Assembly (NCBI GenBank): GCA_026709935.1
Contig: JAPOSC010000004.1
Span: 186,789-250,788, forward strand
Source: Thiotrichales bacterium
Lineage (GTDB): Bacteria; Pseudomonadota; Gammaproteobacteria; HK1
Reading direction: 5' to 3'
Length of the DNA: 64,000 nt
Within the stretch, counting starts at the first letter, position 1; each line of letters starts with the position of its first letter. Below are positions 20,535 through 27,494 of this stretch, in pieces. The notes beneath the pieces were generated by a model that ran no database searches, was not told the DNA's origin, and worked only from the letters and a program-made list of their open reading frames with translations. The position numbers and the translations under genes were made by a program.

Positions 20535-20611
20535 GGGCCTGTAGCTCAGTTGGTCAGAGCGGCGGACTCATAATCCGTTGGTCGCAGGTTCGAGTCCTGC
20601 CGGGCCCACCA
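20535..20611 (+). tRNA. tRNA with CAU anticodon (tRNA-Ile2 or elongator tRNA-Met)
   Basis: GGGCCTGTAGCTCAGTTGGTCAGAGCGGCGGACTCATAATCCGTTGGTCGCAGGTTCGAGTCCTGCCGGGCCCACCA; complete cloverleaf with encoded CCA. Confidence 0.95.
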
Positions 20612-20897
20612 ACCAAATCAACGATTTCCTCCCTGTTATCCCCTGAAAAATAAGAAGATTCCTGCTCAACCGCCCGCGGGCGGCGATCGCGCGGAGCTTC
20701 GGGATCACCGAAGCCTGCTGGCGGATGAGCACCAGATTGAAGTGCTCGTCGTTCGTATCGTCGTTCTTGTAGGTCCTGACCTCGACCCGGGCATGCGTCA
20801 CGCCGGCGGGGATTCCTGGTGACTTTTTTTCGTGATAATTGACGCATCCGCCGTTGATTGTCATGATATTCCGCATCAGAACTGCGAATTGTCATCA

Positions 20898-22052
20898 ATG
20901 TCCCCGCCCGAAGTGCCCCGCCACCTCCAGATCGCGCCCGTGCTGGCGAGCAAATCCTGCTTTCTGTTCGGACCCCGTCAAACCGGCAAGTCCACACTGA
21001 TCCGCCAGCAGCTTGCCGGCTGCCCGGTGTACGACTTGCTCGATCAGTCGCTCTTTCTCCGGCTCTCGCGCCACCCGGCGCTGATCCGCGAAGCGCTGAT
21101 GCCCGAAACGTCCCTCGTGGTCATCGACGAGATTCAGAAACTCCCGGTATTGCTGAACGAAGTGCATCTGATGATCGAGCGGCACGGGGTCCGGTTCCTG
21201 CTGACCGGCTCCAGCGCCCGCAGCCTGCGCCGCAAGGGCGTGAACCTGCTCGGCGGCCGGGCCCGAGCCCGCACGCTGCACCCGTTGACCCGGCATGAGT
21301 TGGGTGCGCGCTTCGACCTGCACCGCGCCCTCGAGTACGGCTTGCTGCCGTCGGTCTATTTCTCCGATGCGCCCGATGAGGACCTGGCCGCCTACGCCGG
21401 CGACTACCTCAAGGAAGAGGTGGCGGCGGAAGCGGTGGTGCGCAACGTCGGTGCGTTCAGCCGCTTTCTGAGCGCCGCCGCGTTGAGCCACGGGCGGATG
21501 ATCAACTTCGCAGGATTCGCAAGCGATACGCAGGTGCCCGCGTCCACGGCGAGAGCCTACTACGACATCCTCAAGGACACATTCATCGCCCGCGAGGTGC
21601 CGGCCATGACGCAGACCCGCAAGCGCAAGGCGGTGTCCACCTCGAAGTACTACCTGTTCGACATCGGTCTGGCGCGGCACCTGCAGGGCCGCCGGGGGCT
21701 GGCGCCGGGCACGCCGGAATACGGGGAAGCCTTCGAGAGCTTCATCCACCAGGAGATCGCCGCCTACTGCAGCTACCATCAGCTTGACCCGCCCGGTTAC
21801 TGGCGCTCGAAATCCGGATTCGAGGTGGATTTCGTGTTTCAGGGCCTGGCCGTCGAAGTGAAGGCGAAGGCCCATGTCGGCGCCCGCGACTGGCGGGGTC
21901 TTGCCGCGTTTGACGAGGAAGGCATCGCCGAACGCCGCCTGCTGGTGTGCCTGGAGCCCGTGCGCCGCCTCGTGGGCAGTATCGAGATCATGCCCTGGGA
22001 CGCATTTCTGGATGCGCTGTGGCAAGGGCGGCTCGTGAACGGCCACCACTGA
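20898..22052 (+). CDS. AAA ATPase with DUF4143 domain
   Basis: FLFGPRQTGKSTLIRQ, LVVIDEIQKLP, FLLTGSSARSLRRKGVNLLGGRA, C-terminal nuclease-like VDFVF..AVEVKAK. Confidence 0.9.
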   Translation: MSPPEVPRHLQIAPVLASKSCFLFGPRQTGKSTLIRQQLAGCPVYDLLDQSLFLRLSRHPALIREALMPETSLVVIDEIQKLPVLLNEVHLMIERHGVRFLLTGSSARSLRRKGVNLLGGRARARTLHPLTRHELGARFDLHRALEYGLLPSVYFSDAPDEDLAAYAGDYLKEEVAAEAVVRNVGAFSRFLSAAALSHGRMINFAGFASDTQVPASTARAYYDILKDTFIAREVPAMTQTRKRKAVSTSKYYLFDIGLARHLQGRRGLAPGTPEYGEAFESFIHQEIAAYCSYHQLDPPGYWRSKSGFEVDFVFQGLAVEVKAKAHVGARDWRGLAAFDEEGIAERRLLVCLEPVRRLVGSIEIMPWDAFLDALWQGRLVNGHH

Positions 22053-22302: not shown

Positions 22303-23154
22303 TTGCCCGCCGAGACGCAAGGACCTTTGGCCTTGCCCTCCTTCCGAGGCCCGCGCTCCGGCGCGGGCTTTCGTGTGTCTGGAACCTCGAATGACGTATT
22401 CGGACACATTGGCCCGTACGTCGGTCGACAGCACCCGAGGTACAACGACAGTCCCGTGTTCGGCTTTGCCGGATTAGTCCTTCCGGTGAATGAGGTGCGT
22501 AGCTTCGGGACGTGGTTCTTCCAGCACAAGTGCCAACTCCTCGACTTCGAGCTCGAACGTTCGGGCGAGCATCCCGCTCAATGGGAGAAGAAGGGCTCGA
22601 GCCTCTACACGGTGACCAACGTCGAACGGTATCGCGAGCTGAGAACGTTCACGAACCGCATGTTCAACAAGATCGAGGCGATCGGAGGTTTCGTGATCTA
22701 CGTTGGGATCAGGAAGACTGCTCCACCGCAGTCCCACTCCCCGAATCGCCTCTACCGCAACGTCCTTCTCGAAGCGGTCAAGCGGATCGATCAGTTCTGC
22801 GAGGTGGACTGCCGTCCGTCGGACAACTTCCTCCTCGCTCTTGACGAGCATGATCAGCGGGCCGCATTGATCACCGAAGTGTCGAGAGCCATGTACGCGG
22901 GCCCCGAGCGGCGACGATACCTCATCGAGCCCCTGTTCAACCTCGAAAGTCACCGTTACCAGACCATACAGGCCGCCGATTGGATTGCTGCGCTGGTGGG
23001 GCGCCTGGGTGCTGTCTGGTCAGATCCGGAGTCCTACTCAGAGAATGGAGTATTCCGTCGTTATTTCGAGCATCGGCTCAATCGCATCAGTCGACGGAGC
23101 GGAATTCGGCAGAGGTCAGCAGAGAACGCCTCCCTCCGCGTCGGGTCGGTGTAG
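22303..23154 (+). CDS. DUF3800-like protein (N-terminus uncertain)
   Basis: PVFGFAGLVLPVNEVRSFGTWFFQHKCQLLDFELERS...LYRNVLLEAVKRIDQFC...LIEPLFNLESHRYQTIQAADWIAALVGR; usual N-terminal Y-x-D-E-S/A-G not seen. Confidence 0.65.
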   Translation: MPAETQGPLALPSFRGPRSGAGFRVSGTSNDVFGHIGPYVGRQHPRYNDSPVFGFAGLVLPVNEVRSFGTWFFQHKCQLLDFELERSGEHPAQWEKKGSSLYTVTNVERYRELRTFTNRMFNKIEAIGGFVIYVGIRKTAPPQSHSPNRLYRNVLLEAVKRIDQFCEVDCRPSDNFLLALDEHDQRAALITEVSRAMYAGPERRRYLIEPLFNLESHRYQTIQAADWIAALVGRLGAVWSDPESYSENGVFRRYFEHRLNRISRRSGIRQRSAENASLRVGSV

Positions 23155-24251: not shown

Positions 24252-24328
24252 GACTCCTTTGCGACCAAAATCGAGCAGATCGTAAAATGGTGTTGACCAT
24301 TCGACGATAGAAACGATAATTGTCGGAT

Positions 24329-25534
24329 ATGGTATCGCCCAGAATCTACGATTCCCTGTTCGCCGAACATCTGGCGAGTCACCGTCAGATGGCGTTTGTC
24401 AGCGGGCCGCGTCAGGTCGGCAAGACCACCGCCTGCCGGTTTCATGCTGATGCCTATGTCAACTGGGACAACATCGACGACCGAGAGCTGATCCTCGCCG
24501 GGCCCGGCACTCTGAGCAATGTATTCGGGCTGGAGCGTCTGTCCGAAACCACCCCTGTGATCCTGTTCGACGAACTCCACAAGTTCCGGCGTTGGAAGCA
24601 GTTCCTGAAGGGATTTTTCGATACCCATGCCGAGCGCGTCCGAGTCATGGTCACGGGAAGCAGCCGCATGGACATCTATCGTCGCGGCGGGGACAGTCTG
24701 ATGGGAAGATACTTCCCCTATCGGATGCACCCGTTTTCCGTGGCCGAGACCATCACGCAGGAACTCCCCGACGCGAAATGCATCTTGCGTCCACCACGTC
24801 CGGTGGACGAAGCGGAATTCCGGGCCCTCTGGCATCACGGTGGTTATCCGGAACCGTTCCTCAAGCGCAATACGCGTTTCAGCCGCCGCTGGCAGTCCCT
24901 GCGCCTGGAGCAACTGGTCAGGGAGGATGTCCGCGACCTCACTCAGGTCCAACAGCTCGACCAACTCGAGATCATGGTGCGGTTGCTGGTCGCCCGGTCG
25001 GCACAACAGTTGATCTATGGCAACCTCGCCCGACAGGTGCGTGTGTCCGTCGACACCATCCGTCGGTGGGTCGCCGCGCTGTGCGACTTGCATCTCGGAT
25101 TCGTCGTCAGACCGTGGTTCAACAATGTCTCCCGATCGCTGCGCAAGGAACCAAAATGGTACCTGCGCGACTGGGCGTCCATCGACGATGTGGGCCAACG
25201 GGCGGAGACGTTCGTCGCGTGCCATCTCCTGAAGGCGGTGGACGGTTGGAACGACATGGGTCTGGGCGATTTCGATCTCGGTTACCTGCGCGACAAGGAG
25301 AAACGGGAGGTCGACTTTCTGGTGGTGCGCGATGGCCGGCCCTGGTTTCTTATCGAGGTGAAGTACGCCGACGAATCCCTCGGTCCGTCTCTGAAACGCT
25401 ACCAGCACCAGATCGGTGCGCCATTCGCGTTTCAGGTCAGCATCGATGCCGACTACATCGACAAGGACTGCTTCGCCGCACCGGGGCCACCGCTGATCGT
25501 GCCGGCGCGGACGCTTCTTTCCCAGTTGTTGTGA
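24329..25534 (+). CDS. AAA ATPase with DUF4143 domain (second, divergent copy)
   Basis: FVSGPRQVGKTTACRF, VILFDELHKFRRWKQFLKGFFD, VMVTGSSRMDIYRRGGDSLMGRYFPYRMHPFS, KREVDFLVVRDGRPWFLIEVKY. Confidence 0.9.
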   Translation: MVSPRIYDSLFAEHLASHRQMAFVSGPRQVGKTTACRFHADAYVNWDNIDDRELILAGPGTLSNVFGLERLSETTPVILFDELHKFRRWKQFLKGFFDTHAERVRVMVTGSSRMDIYRRGGDSLMGRYFPYRMHPFSVAETITQELPDAKCILRPPRPVDEAEFRALWHHGGYPEPFLKRNTRFSRRWQSLRLEQLVREDVRDLTQVQQLDQLEIMVRLLVARSAQQLIYGNLARQVRVSVDTIRRWVAALCDLHLGFVVRPWFNNVSRSLRKEPKWYLRDWASIDDVGQRAETFVACHLLKAVDGWNDMGLGDFDLGYLRDKEKREVDFLVVRDGRPWFLIEVKYADESLGPSLKRYQHQIGAPFAFQVSIDADYIDKDCFAAPGPPLIVPARTLLSQLL

Positions 25535-25574: not shown

Positions 25575-25766
25575 ATGCTCCACGTCAGCGACATCCTGAT
25601 CGAGCGCCACGACCTGGGCTCGTTCGCGGAGCTCGTCGAGGCGGTTCGGACCCATGCCCGGAAGGAGCGATTCCTGCGCATCGACGTGAAGCCACCGTTC
25701 GCGGATACCCCGGAGAACTGGGAGGATGTGCTCGAAAGTGCGTTCACGTCGGCCGCAGGCCGGTAG
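25575..25766 (+). CDS. Small protein of unknown function, first gene of Cas6-like operon
   Basis: 63 aa; stop codon 6 nt before the Cas6-like start; MLHVSDILIERHDLGSFAELVEAVRTHARKERFLRIDVKPPFADTPENWEDVLESAF. Confidence 0.5.
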   Translation: MLHVSDILIERHDLGSFAELVEAVRTHARKERFLRIDVKPPFADTPENWEDVLESAFTSAAGR

Positions 25767-25772
25767 CCGACG

Positions 25773-26465
25773 ATGCGCTGGGAGGAGGCATCGGACCCTG
25801 AGGCGTCGGCCGGCACCGGGGATGCCGTCGATGTCGCGTTCCGGCTCTCCGGCCGGTGGCTGCCCGTGGACCACGCTTTCGCGCTGCGGGACGCGGTGAT
25901 GCAGGTCCTGCCGTGGCTCGCGGACGCGCCGGAGGCGGGCATCCACTCGATTCACGGCGCCGCATCGGGCAACGGCTGGGAACGACCCGGCCGCGGCACC
26001 GGAGAGATGTTGTCGCTCTCGCGCCGCACCCGGCTCCGGCTCCGCGTGCCGGGCGAGTGCGCAGAGGAAGCCGGCGCACTGTGCGGACAGCGTCTCGACA
26101 TCAACGGGTGCGAGATCGTCATCGGGGCGCATCGACCGCAGCCGTTGACGCCCGCCGCCACCGTGTTCGCCCGCTACGTGGTGGACGAGGAAGGCGGGGA
26201 CGAGGAGCGCTTTGTGGAACGCGTCGCATTGGCGCTGGAAGCGCTCTCGGTGCCGGCGCGCAAGCTCCTCTGCGGGCGTTCGTATCGCATCGAATCCGCG
26301 CCCGCCGCGCTTTGCGTCCGCAGCCTGCTGATCGCCGATCTCGGTCCCGGAGAATCGCTCGTCGTCCAGAGCCGCGGCATCGGACCGGGCCGGCTCCTCG
26401 GGTGCGGACTGTTCGTACCGCACAAGGACCTCGGACCGGTGCGCGGCGCGACCGGGGATGACTGA
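25773..26465 (+). CDS. Cas6/Cmx6-like (type I-MYXAN Cas6 family) protein
   Basis: VDVAFRLSGRWLPVDHAFALRDAVMQVLPWLADAPEAGIHSIHGAASGNGWERP...LSRRTRLRLRVPGE...LDINGCEIVIG...TVFARYV...GLGP-like IGPGRLLGCGLFVPHKDL. Confidence 0.8.
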   Translation: MRWEEASDPEASAGTGDAVDVAFRLSGRWLPVDHAFALRDAVMQVLPWLADAPEAGIHSIHGAASGNGWERPGRGTGEMLSLSRRTRLRLRVPGECAEEAGALCGQRLDINGCEIVIGAHRPQPLTPAATVFARYVVDEEGGDEERFVERVALALEALSVPARKLLCGRSYRIESAPAALCVRSLLIADLGPGESLVVQSRGIGPGRLLGCGLFVPHKDLGPVRGATGDD

Positions 26466-26521
26466 GCCGGCGTCGCACGCCGCCCTTCGCGAACTCGGCT
26501 GGATTGTGGAGAGACGCTGAG

Positions 26522-26869
26522 ATGTCCGATTCCCGCCCGGTGGCGGGCGCCGCCCCGCCCACGACCTGCATCGAGGCGGAGCCGTTCGCGCTCCGGGTCA
26601 CCGACGACAGCATGGAGCCCGAATTCGCGCCGGGGTGCATCATCATCGTCGACCCCACCGGGGTGGCGAAGGACGGAGCGTTCGTGCTCGCCGAAATCGA
26701 CGGCGCGTACCTCTTCCGCCGGCTGGAGCGAACCACCGAAGGCGACCGGCTCGTCGCCCTCAAGGACGGCTACGCGCCGGTCGCACTCGCCACCGGGCTC
26801 GAGCCCGTGCGCGGCGTGGTGGTCCAGCGCGCGGGGGCGCGCCGCCGGGATCACAAGCGGTACGACTGA
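26522..26869 (+). CDS. S24/LexA-like peptidase-fold protein
   Basis: FALRVTDDSMEPEFAPGCIIIVDPTGVAKDGAFVLAEIDGAYLFRRLERT; catalytic-Ser region present, canonical Lys position appears to be Arg. Confidence 0.75.
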   Translation: MSDSRPVAGAAPPTTCIEAEPFALRVTDDSMEPEFAPGCIIIVDPTGVAKDGAFVLAEIDGAYLFRRLERTTEGDRLVALKDGYAPVALATGLEPVRGVVVQRAGARRRDHKRYD

Positions 26870-26918
26870 GCGACGGGCCAGCGAGACCCCCTCGATCGCA
26901 CGAGATCGATACGACACG

Positions 26919-27494
26919 ATGGCGATACGCATCAAGAGCAGGTGGCATCACTCCGACCGCAACGAATCGCGGTACCGGACGTTCGCGGACAGCGCGGGAG
27001 CGCTCGCGTTCATCATCTGGCGGCTGTCCGTCGAGCACGCTCGGGAGATCCATCGCGAGGGCTTCGACTACGCCTCCGACCACGAGCGCATCCGCGTGAT
27101 CTCGGAGTACTGCGCCTTCGCGGTCCAGCTCGTGGACCGGCTCGCGCACCGGCGCGTCGACGACGAGGGGCGCGCCGCGCTCATCGTCGCGCTCGGGCGG
27201 CGCCTCGCCGACCAGATGCAGGACAACCTGCTCGACATCGCCGGCCCGGGCGAGTACCGGGCGCCGTTCGTGGAGATGCTCAACGAGCGCCTCGACGACT
27301 ACGCGCGGTTCGACTTCGACGACAACGCGCCGGGGTTCGAAGCACTGCGCTACCTCGGCGACCGCATCATGCGCTCCATGGGCGTCAGCCAGACCAACCG
27401 CTGGGTCATGGACCACGTGATGGAGATCTCGGCCCCGGAACTGTTCGAGAAGATCGCGAAGAGCGTGGACGGCCTTCTCGCAACCGCCGCGTGA
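26919..27494 (+). CDS. Conserved-looking helical protein of unknown function, last gene of Cas6-like operon
   Basis: 191 aa, co-directional, 49 nt after the S24-like gene; codon usage consistent with coding. Confidence 0.6.
   Translation: MAIRIKSRWHHSDRNESRYRTFADSAGALAFIIWRLSVEHAREIHREGFDYASDHERIRVISEYCAFAVQLVDRLAHRRVDDEGRAALIVALGRRLADQMQDNLLDIAGPGEYRAPFVEMLNERLDDYARFDFDDNAPGFEALRYLGDRIMRSMGVSQTNRWVMDHVMEISAPELFEKIAKSVDGLLATAA

Follow-up and report, generated by a model that had tools for sequence, protein, structure and literature searches.

What does a protein of the Cas6 family, whose usual task is to cut CRISPR RNA, do in a gene cluster that carries no CRISPR system? The question is raised by a group of four genes within the window, by which we mean the whole 64-kb stretch of DNA that was analysed. 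That this Cas6 belongs with rDsr, the reverse dissimilatory sulfite reductase pathway, which gains energy by oxidising sulfur and is a major energy pathway of the sulfur cycle, is close to certain. A more specific reading, to which we give about even chances, holds that the cluster is a displaced rDsr accessory module of Gammaproteobacteria, whose domesticated Cas6 controls rDsr expression, probably at the RNA level; here the mechanism is what we infer.

The cluster comprises four open reading frames, all on the forward strand and tightly spaced (intergenic gaps of 6-56 bp), as the initial annotation had described. It also lies downstream of a tRNA, as stated there: tRNA-Met is found at 20535-20611, 5 kb upstream. 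Calling the segment accessory-looking was misleading, since the module goes with a conserved metabolic pathway. The features are as follows.

25575..25766, +, 63-aa protein (s63), with no significant Pfam or NCBIfam match, conserved directly before Cas6 in many Gammaproteobacteria
25773..26465, +, Cas6-family protein of 230 aa (PF09559/TIGR02807), of the rDsr-associated branch without CRISPR (family models, predicted fold, tree)
25872..25874, +, codon of His34, the putative Cas6 catalytic histidine, in a DH motif where helix 1 begins (alignment)
26376..26426, +, glycine-rich loop of Cas6 and rDsr-specific PHK tail, residues 202-218 (alignment)
26522..26869, +, protein with the S24/LexA C-terminal fold, catalytic Lys replaced by Arg, without a DNA-binding domain (Peptidase_S24 match)
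26919..27494, +, all-helical protein of 191 aa, from an unnamed family whose occurrence tracks that of DsrA and Cas6 (family survey)

The S24-like frame encodes 115 aa from its ATG and would encode 121 aa if started at TTG 26504. Upstream of the cluster, two AAA_14-DUF4143 genes (20832-22052 and 24320-25534) stand on either side of a DUF3800 gene (22303-23154), and the second of them matches the PADLOC candidate family PDC-S01.

The 230-aa product matches PF09559 with an E-value of 7.7e-56 (189.5 bits; cut-off 26.7) and TIGR02807 with 121.7 bits (curated cut-off 98.85). An AlphaFold (AF2) model built from 70 sequences reached a pLDDT of 87.8 and a pTM of 0.84. It displays the RAMP (double ferredoxin-like) fold of Cas6, and its 31 best PDB matches are all Cas6 or Cas6-type chains. 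Foldseek places the Cas6 of a type I-B CAST at the top (PDB 8fcj/8fcu; E 2e-17, TM 0.74-0.79), followed by other Cas6 structures, and sequence comparison also relates the protein to solved Cas6 structures. The glycine-rich loop (G-loop) is conserved and His34 is in place. The initial annotation had proposed checking 25773-26465 for precisely this fold and histidine; a structure lacking the RAMP fold, which it named as contrary evidence, is not what was predicted.

Its observation that array and cas partners are missing can be extended from the window to the genome. No CRISPR-like array was detected in the 64-kb window, nor at about 80 related loci, and the same detector did find arrays at CRISPR control loci, most of which also contain effector genes. 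Profile searches of the window's genome (3.78 Mb, 95.9% complete, 88 contigs) returned no Cas1 and no DevR/Cas7, and the Cas3 core yielded helicase matches only, all below cut-off. This genome encodes one PF09559 protein, and neither genome nor locus presents the full set of Cas3, Cas8, Cas7/DevR, Cas5, Cas1 and array that defines type I-MYXAN. A matching effector elsewhere in the genome, which would have reclaimed the gene for CRISPR, was likewise not found, given the missing Cas1 and DevR.

The distribution of the family points to rDsr instead. Across 369 Gammaproteobacteria genomes drawn evenly (including the former Betaproteobacteria; DsrA threshold E <1e-30), PF09559 Cas6 and DsrA occurred together in 111 genomes, Cas6 alone in 7, DsrA alone in 8 and neither in 243, which corresponds to a phi of 0.907. 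The control pair of Cas6 and Cas1 gave a phi of 0.08 (P 0.13) in the same genomes; both statistics ignore relatedness. Of the 17 genomes in the order to which the window belongs, nine carry Cas6 and exactly the same nine carry DsrA, and related genera of the window's own family keep or miss the two jointly. Inspection of five of the seven genomes with Cas6 alone revealed dsr-type neighbours in each of the five; in three, the locus stands at a contig end. Moreover, the divergence of Cas6 correlates with that of DsrA (Mantel r 0.81, n = 37). Cas6 is thus an almost obligatory companion of rDsr. The earlier proposal of a Cas6-like protein recruited elsewhere holds insofar as a real Cas6 fold occurs without CRISPR, apparently in another role; its suggestion of stress sensing or defence is unsupported.

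Outside the class, PF09559 was found in none of 45 dsrA-positive genomes from other classes of the phylum, so the Cas6 partner does not appear to be needed for core rDsr chemistry and, within the phylum, looks specific to Gammaproteobacteria. In one of these other classes, dsrA-positive genomes (L280-L317) carry dsrA-dsrB-dsrL without adjacent dsrEFHC, sometimes with two dsrA copies per genome. Practically every PF09559 protein in the class sample is of the rDsr type. The label "type I-MYXAN CRISPR-associated Cas6/Cmx6" given by automatic annotation is therefore misleading in this class, and gammaproteobacterial genes that bear it are mostly not CRISPR genes.

Cas6 lies at most 8 kb from dsrA in 81 of the 111 genomes, divergently in all 81 and with starts a median of 2.8 kb apart; in the remainder it occupies a contig other than that of dsrA (28 genomes) or is far apart from it (2). 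The divergent position suggests control, this being the layout typical of a regulator next to its target. We surveyed 75 loci with related Cas6 from a one-genome-per-species collection, together with the genomes of the window's own family. The recurring arrangement places Cas6 divergently beside dsrA, dsrB, dsrE, dsrF, dsrH, dsrC, dsrM, dsrK and dsrL, the rDsr operon. On the Cas6 side stand varying selections of a small protein (63 aa; DUF6967 in betaproteobacteria), Cas6, a DsrC-family protein whose terminal Cys is missing, members of the 191-aa family, a TauD-like dioxygenase and a 2Fe-2S oxidoreductase. Pfam confirms the sulfite-reductase domains of DsrA/B, DsrE, both DsrC proteins, TauD, Fer2 and DUF6967. 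With a presence that tracks dsrA and a dsr neighbourhood in relatives, Cas6 behaves as an rDsr accessory gene, although it is no described dsr gene in the literature searched. The window differs from most genomes in that its module lies away from the dsrABEFHCMKL operon. In its own genome, a tauD-dsrA..L operon with divergent tauD stands on another contig (C2) without the module, so that the window holds a displaced module copy.

Among the other products of the cluster, the 191-aa protein is a more constant Cas6 partner than the LexA-fold neighbour. Its family is present in 116 of the 369 genomes, with a phi of 0.88 with DsrA and 0.93 with Cas6, and its gene often lies on a contig other than that of Cas6 or dsrA. 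A search with 42 members gave no Pfam match, and neither a PDB relative nor a matching fold was found for the family; AlphaFold predicts six helices (pLDDT 86.7). The 63-aa proteins form a cluster from 17 loci, immediately before Cas6 in 16 of them; comparison of the 63-aa protein with DUF6967 gave an E-value of only 0.004.

In the survey of relatives that the initial annotation called for, the S24-like gene adjoins Cas6 in this genus only and lies further downstream in several betaproteobacteria. The LexA-fold partner proposed there is real as an S24/LexA fold (Peptidase_S24, E 1.5e-14), and shares with S24/LexA-UmuD peptidase-fold proteins the fold family and the Ser-Met motif. Its Ser-Lys dyad, however, is broken, the Lys position being Arg in all nine sequences. 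Unlike a LexA/CI-type repressor, the protein consists of the S24 domain alone (115-121 aa), with no N-terminal helix-turn-helix domain. In this genus it probably serves as an add-on without proteolytic function. In 33 loci of relatives, Cas6 is directly followed by a DsrC paralogue that lacks the C-terminal Cys (PF04358) and that we take to be RspA-like; in the window this paralogue is not beside Cas6 and the S24-like protein occupies its place.

The 70 rDsr-type Cas6 proteins form one branch, split with 100/99 support from a comparison set of eight Cas6/Cmx6 from cyanobacterial plasmids, most with their cas operons, plus 8fcj; the truncated sequence L149 was left out of the tree. The first branch inside the comparison set is a Cas6/Cmx6 encoded on a Gloeobacter plasmid (L145, 3971-4762); no cas genes are annotated around it, and a gene of the PAPS-reductase family lies close by. 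With the Cas6/Cmx6 of type I-MYXAN and of I-B CAST, the window protein shares the family model, the RAMP fold, the G-loop and the putative catalytic histidine. The His34 position holds H in 60, Y in 9 and T in 1 of the 70 rDsr-type sequences, and H in 7 of the 8 CRISPR-linked Cas6 that cover it. G210, C211, G212, F214 and K218 are invariant among the 70.

In other respects the protein departs from these relatives, quite apart from its missing cas genes and array. It has gained rDsr-specific residues, of which R85, G168 and K218 are invariant and H217 is kept at 97%; H217 and K218 are not conserved in CRISPR-linked Cas6. The rDsr-type proteins are also acidic, with a mean pI of 6.5 (5.5 for the window protein) as computed from sequence, and do not share the basic character of the nine CRISPR-linked proteins (9.2-10.2), although part of this shift could reflect lineage composition because the comparison set is cyanobacterial. 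Basic Cas6 positions have been lost at sites aligned with window residues 139, 153, 177, 206 and 208, two of them in the G-loop. Given this acidity and these losses, the RNA binding typical of crRNA processing may be gone.

Two explanations that would sever Cas6 from rDsr function are each very improbable. That the protein is a functional crRNA-processing Cas6, or a remnant of a defence system, could appeal to the TIGR02807 family name, to the fold and to the PADLOC match of the upstream DUF4143/AAA_14 gene. The lack of Cas1 and DevR in the genome, the array-free related loci, the missing Cas1 association across 369 genomes and the separate Cas6 branch all speak against it; a CRISPR function was rejected and is refuted at the available genome completeness. 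Genetic hitch-hiking, in which Cas6 would stay near dsr by linkage without a functional tie, draws on the capacity of vertical co-inheritance to keep neighbours together. Yet the two still occur together in genomes that have them unlinked or on different contigs, the window's own genome included, and related genera lack Cas6 and DsrA jointly.

What Cas6 contributes to rDsr is less settled. Under the preferred reading of a domesticated Cas6 that controls rDsr expression, the protein would bind, and probably cut, a structured RNA, for which the dsr transcript is the most plausible source, by means of the retained G-loop and His34 or His217-Lys218. The outcome would be control or processing of dsr expression, assisted by the 191-aa and 63-aa proteins as well as, in relatives, the DsrC paralogue. 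The large retention of G-loop and histidine counts for such an RNA mechanism, and the loss of His34 in 10 of 70 proteins counts against it. The strongest competitor, with roughly one chance in three by our estimate, keeps the Cas6 fold and assigns it a non-RNA task in rDsr, such as the binding of a small ligand or of DsrC/RspA-like proteins, or help in building Dsr complexes. The acidity of the protein, the loss of Cas6-specific basic residues, the new R85, G168, H217 and K218, the tight co-occurrence with DsrA and the adjoining DsrC paralogue would all suit it. The G-loop and the histidine, however, are kept beyond what a bare scaffold would require, and the divergent place beside dsrA suggests control. 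An action on tRNA or another RNA tied to sulfur transfer is improbable. The DsrEFH and DsrC families are homologous to the TusBCD/TusE tRNA-thiolation relay, and the DsrE and DsrC family membership of module neighbours, along with the RNA-binding fold of Cas6, would accord with such a role; however, the conserved genes of the module include no recognisable tRNA-modification gene, and no specific sign of such a role turned up.

In the open literature, Cas6 and dsr meet only within the CRISPR sections of genome papers, and we found no paper linking Cas6 to rDsr; as subscription journals lay outside the search, novelty is provisional. Found almost invariably alongside a major sulfur-cycle energy pathway, this Cas6 would represent a clear move of a Cas protein from immunity to metabolism. 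The rDsr pathway, in turn, gains two or three candidate missing components, namely the Cas6-like, 191-aa and 63-aa proteins.

Candidate RNA substrates were sought in and around the dsr operon. Rfam families at nine loci were limited to tRNAs. In 39 Cas6-bearing Gammaproteobacteria, structure is strong at the dsrC/dsrM junction (mean z -2.69, 68% below -2), less so at dsrA/dsrB (mean z -1.82, 46% below -2) and weak at dsrB/dsrE (-1.01); the other well-sampled dsr junctions showed no such structure. The mean z of 15 dsrA/dsrB junctions taken from Cas6-free genomes of other classes was -0.28, a weak control in that most of these operons have dsrA-dsrB-dsrL alone. GGGG occurs in the 5' arm of the hairpin at 20 of 30 dsrC/dsrM and 10 of 27 dsrA/dsrB junctions, compared with 1 of 92 coding controls. 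The hairpins at these two junctions (L238-L277) mostly do not have a U-tract and are mostly non-terminator structures. Transcripts of dsrEFH and dsrC are reported to exceed those of dsrA in A. vinosum (PMC3397948), and this excess, together with the hairpins, would fit segmental processing by a Cas6-like RNase. The sharpest form of this idea, in which Cas6 is a dedicated, CRISPR-free endoribonuclease that processes dsr mRNA at hairpins and sets the DsrAB:DsrEFHC ratio with two unnamed partner families, is rather unlikely. Attenuators or stabilising hairpins provide an ordinary alternative for the same structures. As a universal substrate the junction hairpins were not upheld, being absent from the window genome's own dsr operon and both weaker and fewer in betaproteobacteria.

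A palindrome upstream of dsrA was a further candidate. CTATCCC-N4-GGGATAG scores at least 11 in 75 of 120 regions, with 3.8 expected. Most of the Gammaproteobacteria sampled carry the form (C/A)TATCCC-N4-GGGATA(G), and betaproteobacteria carry CTACCC-N4-GGGTAG. Its place is the stretch separating dsrA from the divergently transcribed gene beside it, at L152:7901-7916 in the window's own genome (tauD/dsrA) and upstream of dsrA in L158-L236. It was dropped as a candidate Cas6 hairpin, since the half-sites vary independently at the core and there is no good copy near the window Cas6. Judged by this pattern of variation, it is probably a DNA operator of an rDsr regulator and not an RNA stem. In a Rhodoferax genome, a 42-bp tandem repeat that contains a hairpin lies in the region upstream of dsrA (L054:7426-7515).
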